From Chloroflexales bacterium ZM16-3 (lineage in GTDB: Bacteria; Chloroflexota; Chloroflexia; Chloroflexales; Chloroflexaceae), in the NCBI GenBank assembly GCA_004138175.2, contig RYFE02000008.1:1-64000 (forward strand): DNA of 64,000 bases, in the 5' to 3' direction. Shown here in pieces: positions 5,527-10,882 of the stretch. Made by a program: the position numbers and the translations under genes. The notes beneath the pieces are model-generated. The model was not told the DNA's origin and did not search any database. It was given only the letters and a program-made list of their open reading frames with translations. Every line of letters starts with the position of its first letter. Position 1 is the stretch's first letter.

Positions 5527-6044
5527 CCTTACAACTGGCTAAAAAAATAGACAAACGCCCGCCGGGCCCTCAGGACACTGAGGTGTTGGCGAGCGTCATT
5601 GTCGCATCAGTTGGGTGCCGCAGGCTGCGGCGGCGGATAGCGAAATGCCCCCGGTGCGCATCATAGCGCGGTAGGGGGCTTGCCGGGGCTCTTCGGTGGG
5701 ACGCCCGGCGCGGGCCTATGAGGACGAGGGAGACGTAGGTTACAGTACCGGGCGGTGAGTCGCGCCTAGCATGAAGAACGGGAACTCAGGTCTTTGAGCT
5801 CTCGTCAGGGCCTCTTTGCGCCAGGGCAGGAAAATTAAACGCCGGTTAGGTATTAACGTAAATGATACAAGGTTGTCTACGTTCTGTCAAGTGCAATTGG
5901 GCAAAGTGTACAAGTCAGGGGTCAGGAGTCGGGAGTCGGGAGTCGGGAGTCGGTGCGTTTGGCACCGACTCCCGACTCCCGACTCCCGACTCCCGACTCC
6001 TGACTCCTGACTCCTGACCCCTGACTCCTGGTAGAATTGCCGCC
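5527..6044. other. Intergenic region between divergent gltB and GT4 gene
   Basis: This 518-bp divergent spacer contains the gltB leader. A TATGAT hexamer on the minus strand (5660-5665) could be a -10 but has no recognisable -35. The large hairpin at 5914-6030 occupies the end nearest the plus-strand gene. No conserved riboswitch was recognised. Confidence 0.5.
5914..6030. repeat. Large hairpin of GGAGTCG/CGACTCC repeats upstream of GT4 gene
   Basis: The left arm is repeated GGGAGTC and GGTCAG units and the right arm is their complement, joined around a GTGCGTTTGGCAC core. The pairing extends for roughly 50 bp. It ends about 15 bp before the ATG at 6045, so it could hide the ribosome-binding region. 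Related units occur at 7283-7376 and 52620-52662. Confidence 0.85.
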
Positions 6045-7478
6045 ATGCACACGCCACGAATCGCCTACTGCTCGCCGATCAACCCCGCGCCGTCGGGGAT
6101 CTCGGATTACAGCGAGGAGCTGCTGCCCTACCTCGGGCAGTACGCCGAGATCACGCTGTTTGTTGAGGACGGGCTGCGGCCCACGAACCCCGACCTGGCC
6201 GCGCACTTGGAGGTGCTGCCGCTGCGGCGGCTGCCCCGCGAGCTGCGCCGCCGCCGCTACGACGGCATCGTCTACCATATGGGCAACAGCCCCGCCCACG
6301 CAGGGATCTGGCGGGCCGCCCAGCGTATGCCGGGCGTGATCGTGATGCACGAGCTGGTGCTGCACCACTTTATGCTCTGGTACGCGGCCAACGTCCAGCG
6401 CGATGTGCAGCTCTATGTGCGCGCTATGGCCGAGCGCTACGGCGAGCCCGGCGCGCACATGGCCCAGCTCATGATCCGCTCGCGATTCACCGACGCCGCC
6501 TTCGACTTCCCCTGCTGCGAGCCGGCCCTGGCTGCCGCCCGCGGCATCATCACCCACAGCCGCTATGTGGCTGATCGCGCCGCCGCGATCAGGCCCGATC
6601 TGCCCTCCGCCGTGGTGCCGATGGGCGTGCCGCTGCCCGCACCTGTTGGGCGCGATGCGGCCCGCGCCCGCCTGGGGCTGCCTGAGGGCGCCGACATCCT
6701 GTCCAGCTTCGGCCATATCAACGCCTGGAAGCGGGTCGAGCCAGCCCTGCGCGCCCTGCGCCAGCTGCGCGAAGACGGCCGCGACGCGCGCTACATCCTG
6801 GTCGGCAGCGTCTCGCCCAACTACGACCTGCCCGGCCTGATCGGGCGCATGGGCCTGGCCGAGCACGTCACCATCACCGGCTACGTGCCGCGCGAGCAGT
6901 TCGAGGACTATGTGGCCGCCGCCGACATCTGCGTGAACCTGCGCCACCCCACCGCAGGCGAGACGAGCGCCAGTCTGCTGCGCCTGCTGGGTGCCGGGCG
7001 GCCGACTCTGGTGAGCGCCATCGGCTCCTTCGCTGAGCTGCCCGCTGGCGTGGCCGCCCAGGTGGACACTGATGCCGCAGAGGGCGACCTCATCCTGGCC
7101 TACTGTAGGCTGCTGCTGGGCAGGCCCGATCTGGCCGCCGCGCTCGGCGCGCGGGCGCGGGCCTTCGTGGCCGCCGAGCACTCGCTGGATGCCGCCGCGC
7201 TCGGCTATGCCCGCTTCCTCGCCCGGCTCTACGGCTGGCCCGCCCTGCGCAGGCTCCGCGAGCGACCGCTGTGGGAACCAGGGGTCAGTGGTCAGGATTC
7301 GGGAGTCGGTGCCCGGCCCCCCAACCCCCAACCCCCAACCCCCAACCCCCAACCCCCAACCCCCGACTCTTGGCCTCTGGTTGCCGCCACGGGCCGGGCG
7401 ATTACCGAGATCGGGCTGGGCGAGGGCGATGATGGGCTGATGCGGGCGGCGGCCGCCCGTATCGCCGAGATCATATAA
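6045..7478 (+). CDS. Glycosyltransferase family 4 (GT-B fold)
   Basis: This 477-aa protein starts with RIAYCSPINPAPSGISDYS, a typical N-terminal Rossmann strand with the glycine loop of GT4 enzymes. The C-terminal half has the FGHINAWKRVEPALRAL, YILVG and GYVPREQFEDYVAAADI segments of the donor nucleotide-sugar domain. GETSASLLRLLGAGRP is the E-x7-E-like region. No strong Shine-Dalgarno is visible before the ATG. Residues about 413-444 are low complexity (repeated PNPQPPT) and come from a repeat insertion in the DNA at 7283-7376. The normal-looking C-terminus resumes afterwards. The stop abuts the next gene's ATG, implying co-transcription. Sugar specificity is unknown. Confidence 0.88.
   Translation: MHTPRIAYCSPINPAPSGISDYSEELLPYLGQYAEITLFVEDGLRPTNPDLAAHLEVLPLRRLPRELRRRRYDGIVYHMGNSPAHAGIWRAAQRMPGVIVMHELVLHHFMLWYAANVQRDVQLYVRAMAERYGEPGAHMAQLMIRSRFTDAAFDFPCCEPALAAARGIITHSRYVADRAAAIRPDLPSAVVPMGVPLPAPVGRDAARARLGLPEGADILSSFGHINAWKRVEPALRALRQLREDGRDARYILVGSVSPNYDLPGLIGRMGLAEHVTITGYVPREQFEDYVAAADICVNLRHPTAGETSASLLRLLGAGRPTLVSAIGSFAELPAGVAAQVDTDAAEGDLILAYCRLLLGRPDLAAALGARARAFVAAEHSLDAAALGYARFLARLYGWPALRRLRERPLWEPGVSGQDSGVGARPPNPQPPTPNPQPPTPDSWPLVAATGRAITEIGLGEGDDGLMRAAAARIAEII
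7283..7376. repeat. Intragenic simple repeat inside the GT4 gene
   Basis: Units of GGTCAG/GGAGTCGG are followed by a run of CCCCAAC heptamers. The tract is read in frame and makes a proline-rich loop near the C-terminus. The CCCCAAC run matches the one at 221-256 in the partial GT39 gene. Confidence 0.8.
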
Positions 7479-9329: not shown

Positions 9330-9392
9330 GTTGGGGGCTGGCAGGGCTGGTGCAACGTCCTGAGCAGACCCCGACTGGCAACTGGAAGTCGC

Positions 9393-9457
9393 GCCCCGTA
9401 GCCCGCCCGTTTACGGGCCGGGCTCTCAGGGTGACCGGGTGAGTTCTGCGCTACTGC
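9393..9457. repeat. Half copy of GCAGTAGCGC-ended palindromic element
   Basis: It contains the CCCGTTTACGGGCCGGGC palindrome also seen at about 14362-14388 and, inverted, near 29981-30000. It ends in TTCTGCGCTACTGC, the terminal repeat of the family. Confidence 0.65.
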
Positions 9458-9561
9458 AACTACAGAGATCAGCCCTGGTGCGGATGTACGGCTGAAGGCA
9501 GCTGTGGTAGATTCGCGCCTGGGTTGCTCCCAATCTGCAATCTGCAATCTCACGAGGGAAA

Positions 9562-9795
9562 CTTACCGTTCGCTTAAATTTTTGGGCGCTAAATGAAATT
9601 CTTTCCCCACTTGCGCCCGAAAAACTGGCTAAAATCGAGCTCCATTCCCCACTTCGTCATACACGATGTCGGAATGTGTAAAGCGTTTCGGCTCAATCCA
9701 TCACCAAGTGGGGCAGATTGCCTTCCAGGTAGCCGGTTTTTACCCGCCAGTGGGGGAATTTCACGAACCGATTCCGAATATAAGCGAACGCTAAG
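9562..9795. mobile_element. 234-bp MITE with 19-bp terminal inverted repeats
   Basis: The left end (9562-9580) and right end (9777-9795) are inverted repeats matching at 17 of 19 positions, with core CGTTCGCTTA. The interior is itself partly palindromic (arms with CCCCACTTGCG and CCGGTTTTTACCCG). GGGAAA lies at both junctions (9556-9561 and 9795-9800), consistent with a 5-6 bp target duplication. No coding capacity. It sits 8 bp before the ATG at 9804. Confidence 0.8.
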
Positions 9796-9803
9796 GGAAA
9801 AGA

Positions 9804-10646
9804 ATGACCTATCGAACCTACGTGGTGCGCATCTATCTGCTCGCGCTGATCCTGATATACGTCCTCCGCCAGGGGGTAGCCCTGGCCACTGAGCCCGCTG
9901 CGCTGCCAACCATCAACCTGCGCCACGGGAGCCGCCAGAGCCTCGCCCGTACTCCCGGTCCGAGCATCGATCCCTACATCCGCCCCGATATGGCCCGGCG
10001 TATGCTACAGCTGCGGACGACGATCCTGGCCGCCGCCTATCGCCACAACCTCCCGGCCCTCTCTGGTATGAGCAATCAAGAGTTCGCCGCCGTAATCGTG
10101 ACGATTCTCTACAACGAGAACTTCGGCTGGCTTGAGGACGATATCGCGCCGCTGCGCGCGGTAACACCGCTCTACCAGGATCTCCAGCGGCGGGCGAACG
10201 AGAGCCGCATGGGCGGCAACTTCAGCGTGTGGCCGGCCAACCTGCGCCCCTCGGTGGCCCTGGAGATCCTGCGCCACGAGCTGCCGCTCGCGTGCGGGCG
10301 CGTAGAAAGCGTGCCTGTGCGCGTGGAGGGCAGCCAGATCGACCTCGACGCCTACGCCTCGCAAGACGACCTGTACGCCGCGATCACGCAGGAGATTAGT
10401 CGGGATGATATGGCGGTAGAGTATCTGGCGGCGAATCTGGAGCGCGGGCTGTACCGTGCGGCGGCGGATGGCGTGCCCGTGAGCTGGCGCACCCTGGCGG
10501 CATGGCACAACCAGGGCATCATGAGTCCGCAGGCCATCCAGCAGAACCCCGCGGCGCGCGACTATGTCCGGCGCGCGACTGCCTACCTGCCGGCAGCCAG
10601 GGCGCTGGTGCGCCACAAATCATCGGGCTACATGGGTATGATATAG
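9804..10646 (+). CDS. Hypothetical exported or membrane-anchored protein, possibly lysozyme-like
   Basis: The 280-aa product has one N-terminal hydrophobic segment (residues about 7-22) serving as signal or anchor, then a soluble domain. GGGAAAAG precedes the ATG. Segments such as FAAVIVTILYNENFGW and SWRTLAAWHNQGI followed by ARDYVRRATAYLP resemble the catalytic-Glu helix and late helices of lysozyme/transglycosylase folds. That link is weak and I do not assign an activity. A hairpin at 10679-10718 probably ends its transcript. A MITE inserted immediately upstream has probably separated the gene from its original promoter. Confidence 0.6.
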   Translation: MTYRTYVVRIYLLALILIYVLRQGVALATEPAALPTINLRHGSRQSLARTPGPSIDPYIRPDMARRMLQLRTTILAAAYRHNLPALSGMSNQEFAAVIVTILYNENFGWLEDDIAPLRAVTPLYQDLQRRANESRMGGNFSVWPANLRPSVALEILRHELPLACGRVESVPVRVEGSQIDLDAYASQDDLYAAITQEISRDDMAVEYLAANLERGLYRAAADGVPVSWRTLAAWHNQGIMSPQAIQQNPAARDYVRRATAYLPAARALVRHKSSGYMGMI

Positions 10647-10678
10647 CTCAGCCTCTTGGAAGGCAGCTGTAGGTATGA

Positions 10679-10718
10679 AGAACCGACGACTGACCACGGG
10701 TGGTCGGTCGTCGGTTCT
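10679..10718 (+). terminator. 19-bp hairpin downstream of 9804-10646
   Basis: Inverted repeat AGAACCGACGAC.. pairs with ..GTCGTCGGTTCT over 19 bp with one G-T mismatch and a short loop. It lies 33 bp beyond the stop. No U-tract follows. Confidence 0.5.
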
Positions 10719-10882
10719 GCCGCACAGGACTCCCTACATGACATGTCTAGAGAGGCGGGCAGAAGGATTGAGCCTGTCATAGAAAGACGCGAGCGACCGG
10801 CCCTGAGCTTGCCGAAGGGAGCGAGCCACCAGGTTCAGTGCCTCAGTGGCTCAAGCATGCTGCTCAGTGCTATAGCGTTGCC

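Follow-up and report, generated by a model that had tools for sequence, protein, structure and literature searches.

The window (the whole 64,000-nt stretch of DNA analyzed) carries at position 9804 a gene whose reading frame is intact and whose protein has no match in Pfam or NCBIfam. A long near-perfect hairpin (gaaccgacgactgaccacgggtggtcggtcgtcggttc), possibly a terminator, follows the gene directly at 10678-10718. Upstream, a MITE lies between a conserved promoter-like block and the start codon. The features of the locus, with their coordinates and strands, are as follows.

9480..9513, plus strand: conserved promoter-like block, GCGGATGTAC-N15-TGGTAGATT, of a form common to the leaders of relatives G004 and G002
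9505-9513, plus strand: extended -10, TGGTAGATT, intact, 48 bp before the insertion
9557..9561, plus strand: left copy of the 5-bp duplication GGAAA; together with the overlapping GAGG, what is left of the original ribosome-binding site
9562..9795, plus strand: MITE, non-coding, an imperfect palindrome throughout; multicopy in its own genome, with matches in 16 of 61 genomes and an RNA fold z of -7.1
9562..9580, plus strand: left terminal inverted repeat, CTTACCGTTCGCTTAAATT, from arm comparison; its outer end is common to IS1634-family ISs
9777..9795, minus strand: right terminal inverted repeat, from comparison with the left arm
9792..9800, plus strand: putative hybrid ribosome-binding site, TAAG (element) plus GGAAA (duplication), from the sequence and predicted duplex energies (-5.7 occupied versus -7.0 for the joined flanks)
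9796..9800, plus strand: right copy of the duplication GGAAA, from flank comparison
9804..10646, plus strand: gene for a 280-aa protein that has a hydrophobic stretch at its N terminus; conserved in the order, as 47 of 61 genomes have homologues

An initial annotation of this DNA described a 234-bp MITE with 19-bp inverted ends, and this description holds: the element is 234 bp long, begins CTTACCGTTCGCTTA and finishes TAAGCGAACGCTAAG, its 19-nt terminal arms (9562-9580 and 9777-9795) are 89% complementary, and copies are dispersed. The coordinates then given, 9556-9804, do enclose the element, but they also take in flanking sequence. The ORF list contains only short mechanical frames within it, and these cross its ends. 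When the host genome (6.27 Mb in 127 contigs) was searched, the same unit was found in full on two further contigs, C38 and C121, at 92-93% identity, along with an internally deleted, 111-bp version on C96 (L081:1782-1892) that retains its 5-bp duplication (CTTCT) and a 45-bp remnant of the right end on C1. Because copies are dispersed in this way, the possibility that the palindrome arose by chance was rejected. MITE ends also occur at the ends of contigs C110, C68, C24, C53, and C116. Pairing their flanks by eye, we found GGATG to be common to C110 and C24 and ATGTC to C68 and C116, which fits a single insertion per pair, split by assembly. The copy on C110 (L083) lies within the end of an ORF, presumably that of a PIN-domain gene.

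Overall, 16 of the 61 genomes searched contain MITE matches, and every one of them belongs to the window's own family; the order's other families, represented by 24 genomes, gave no match. The nearest named relatives, based on the orthologue searches, are Oscillochloris (family Chloroflexaceae). No plasmid copies were found, and the interior of the MITE could not be traced to a source through the 35-nt match to it in G015 (L041). An IS1634-type right end precedes the MITE by 5 bp in G023 (L034), where the 5-bp flanks of the MITE copy (TATGA and TCATA) are mutually reverse complementary, as if rearranged.

GGGAAA had been noted at both junctions. It is indeed present, but the exact duplication is the 5-bp GGAAA, the G at 9795 being the terminal base of the element. 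Both flanks are readable for 16 insertions (the 15 full-length copies and C96), of which seven have an exact 5-bp duplication, versus none of 240 mismatched pairings of left and right flanks; exact duplication is absent from the other nine, including C38 and C121. Given these duplication counts and the recurrence of the unit on two other contigs, the insertion in the window is more than a chance resemblance, and the initial annotation was for the most part right about it.

The ends of the MITE point to its probable source of transposase. Other elements in the host genome have a MITE-like end and a different interior, and one of them, on contig C70, encodes a C-terminal transposase fragment of 306 aa. 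Full-length relatives of this transposase are encoded on 1,822-bp elements in G010, G030, G004, G033, and G027. The G010 protein matches the NCBIfam model for IS1634 family transposases (NF033559, E 8.4e-87), as well as Pfam DDE_Tnp_1 and DUF4277. The ends of the 1,822-bp IS are CTTACCGTTCGCTTAAAT...AAATAAGCGAACGGTAAG, and the terminal CTTACCGTTCGCT is common to the MITE and to the IS with the IS1634 transposase. Eight IS loci were examined, one of which is flanked by N; the seven with readable flanks have target duplications of 5 bp (four loci) or 6 bp (three loci). Thus, the MITE resembles IS1634-family ISs in its terminal sequence and in its 5- to 6-bp class of target duplication, and differs in that it has no transposase gene, is 234 rather than 1,822 bp long, and is similar near the ends only. 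We found no complete IS1634 copy in the host assembly, only the C-terminal fragment and IS ends (most of them at contig ends), and a search of that genome with the DUF4277 model returned no match. Judging from the shared ends, the MITE was probably mobilized in trans by an IS1634-family transposase; a MITE with IS1634 parentage was not found in the portions of the literature available to us.

Hairpin-type MITEs are familiar from the Correia elements, which are intergenic, form stems, and may be co-transcribed with neighboring genes. The window MITE shares these features, the co-transcription as a possibility, and has other ends, another size, and another host; it is not known to have a promoter or RNase III role. 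Among IS-derived bacterial MITEs, the portions of the reports available describe MITECca01 (parent IS, IS982) and MITEAba12 as being, like the element here, short, non-coding, multicopy, and IS-like at the ends, with target duplications reported for MITEAba12 (PMC6382973, PMC9769881). As far as those accounts go, both have other parents, and MITEAba12 is said to have weak secondary structure, whereas the window MITE is palindromic over its full length and occurs in several genera of a single family.

The site as it would have been before insertion can be compared with that in five genus relatives, none of which has the MITE at this gene (in all five, the gene and any MITE matches are on different contigs). 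The joined flanks of the window (...GAGGGAAAAGAATG) align with CAGGGGCAATTATG in G004 and GAGGGGCAGTTATG in G002, and in all three a purine-rich block begins 11 nt before the ATG. The leaders of G001, G003, and G005 differ and align poorly. A matching empty site in relatives, which the initial annotation named as a check, is thus supported by two of the five.

The same comparison makes visible the promoter-like block at 9480-9513, which can be seen by comparison only. The block has a single match in the window and none in shuffled sequence. Among the 30 loci taken in (from the 47 genomes with the gene), the form TGGTANAYT occurs upstream of 13 orthologues (the window's own included), versus 0.08 expected from downstream sequence of the same loci. 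It is absent within 300 nt in the other 17, including G001 and G005, two of these 17 having <160 nt of upstream sequence. On sequence grounds, the block is the probable original promoter of the gene. The initial annotation held that the insertion had moved the original promoter 234 bp away; a probable promoter was indeed displaced, by 239 bp once the duplication is counted, so that its distance to the ATG went from 60 to 299 nt.

Immediately before the gene, the occupied site reads TAAG-GGAAA-AGAATG. It had been suggested that the right-hand duplicate by itself rebuilt the ribosome-binding site. The MITE does lie in that region and the sequence before the ATG was rebuilt, but as a hybrid to which the element contributes TAAG. 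Because the pattern used did not locate a 16S 3' end in the host genome, duplex energies were calculated with an assumed anti-Shine-Dalgarno sequence. The predicted value is -5.7 kcal/mol for both the occupied site and G004, versus -7.0 for the joined flanks and -7.7 for G002. Shine-Dalgarno strength was rejected as evidence in itself, because these duplexes are no stronger than those of many random 20-mers from the window (median -3.8 kcal/mol, with 48.5% at or below -4.0). For an assumed transcription start at 9520-9526, the mean predicted openness of -16 to +6 is 0.55 with the MITE versus 0.58 in the joined flanks. Given the duplex and openness predictions, the insertion is predicted to be tolerated, with translation probably using the hybrid site, which by prediction is slightly weaker than the original.

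The reading that we favor, with a probability of about 0.8, is as follows. A 234-bp hairpin MITE, moved in trans by an IS1634-family transposase, would have entered the Shine-Dalgarno region and duplicated GGAAA, sparing the gene's own extended -10 promoter. Because that promoter was left intact, transcription most likely still starts there (at about 9520) and would run through the MITE, giving a leader lengthened by 239 nt with the long hairpin (234 nt) inside it. The hairpin would stop at the last base of the MITE, so the start region should stay largely open, and translation would begin at the hybrid AAGGGA site. The element, its copies, ends, and duplication, the related empty sites, and the conserved promoter-like block are read directly from the sequence. 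From these, we infer the identity of the mobilizing transposase, the transcription start, the read-through, and the level of translation. The most likely effect on the gene would be near-neutral to mildly reduced expression.

A harsher outcome, in which the leader hairpin halts transcription or blocks translation and this strain has little or no expression of the gene, is in our view unlikely. The plus strand of the MITE as RNA folds at -89.9 kcal/mol (the z of -7.1 being relative to dinucleotide shuffles), and in Microcystis an IS1634 insertion reduced expression of the downstream genes, according to the part of that report available (PMC11448079). However, a scan found no terminator-like site, the start region is predicted to be open, and the frame is intact.

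Very doubtful is the idea that the gene is now driven from within the MITE, by an outward promoter close to the right end (TATAAG, 9779-9784), a new outward promoter also having been raised as a possibility by the initial annotation. TATAAG does point outward close to the ATG, and transcripts begin inside MITEAba12, according to the portion of the report available (PMC6382973). However, a sigma-70 consensus scan of 9330-9820 found no site, TATAAG is not conserved (in many other copies its place is taken by AAATAAG or some different sequence), and the intact promoter-like block upstream argues against it, making a new promoter unnecessary.

A further possibility, that the palindrome serves this gene as a regulatory RNA of the host and is not a mobile element, is extremely improbable. 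Its fold is strong and its interior conserved, but copies occur at unrelated sites (several with target duplications), there is no Rfam match at E <= 1, and the five genus relatives lack it at the orthologous gene. The 15 aligned copies all fold nearly end to end, with the longest pair spanning 230-245 nt and z values of -2.0 to -7.8 relative to mononucleotide shuffles, and 14 of the 15 are 232-234 bp long (C121 was entered as a chosen 234-bp stretch). The interior, which has paired CCCCAC/GTGGGG blocks and TACAC/GTGTA, has a pairwise identity of 0.74, versus 0.86 for the outermost 16 columns of either end. Covariation is weak overall (RNAalifold covariation term, -0.05) and was not accepted as proving that the RNA is functional. 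On the structure of the window copy, 24 cells are changed on both sides versus 13.7 in shuffles, and further pair types are not above shuffled levels (412 of 500 shuffles at least as high); the rows of the alignment are related to one another, and joint change at the two ends accounts for the variation in the outer helix. It is conceivable, but quite unlikely, that the conserved interior of a family-specific MITE kept at near-constant length across several genera is under selection, perhaps because it binds transposase or a host factor or because, as a hairpin in leaders, it tunes host genes. The TAAG end could then contribute half of a ribosome-binding site at any insertion where a purine-rich duplication follows it.

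To return to the favored read-through account, this insertion in a filamentous green bacterium is an event of an ordinary kind, of which it makes a neat example. Its value is as a worked case, with the MITE between a promoter-like block and a start codon and the empty site in two relatives, from a family for which literature searches on MITEs in Chloroflexus/Chloroflexi returned, at the level of listings, no description of this or any such element. Because a TAAG end followed by a purine-rich duplication forms a passable ribosome-binding site, the case suggests how a gene may survive having a MITE in its leader.

Two further features of the window were noted. The palindrome ccctgagcttgccgaaggg, at 10803-10821, resembles what we take to be a widespread short bacterial repeat. 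At 7292-7440, short tandem repeats encode a NPQPPTPNPQPPTP-like peptide near the end of ORF 6045-7478, and ORF 5922-7352, on the opposite strand, has similar repeats at its ends.
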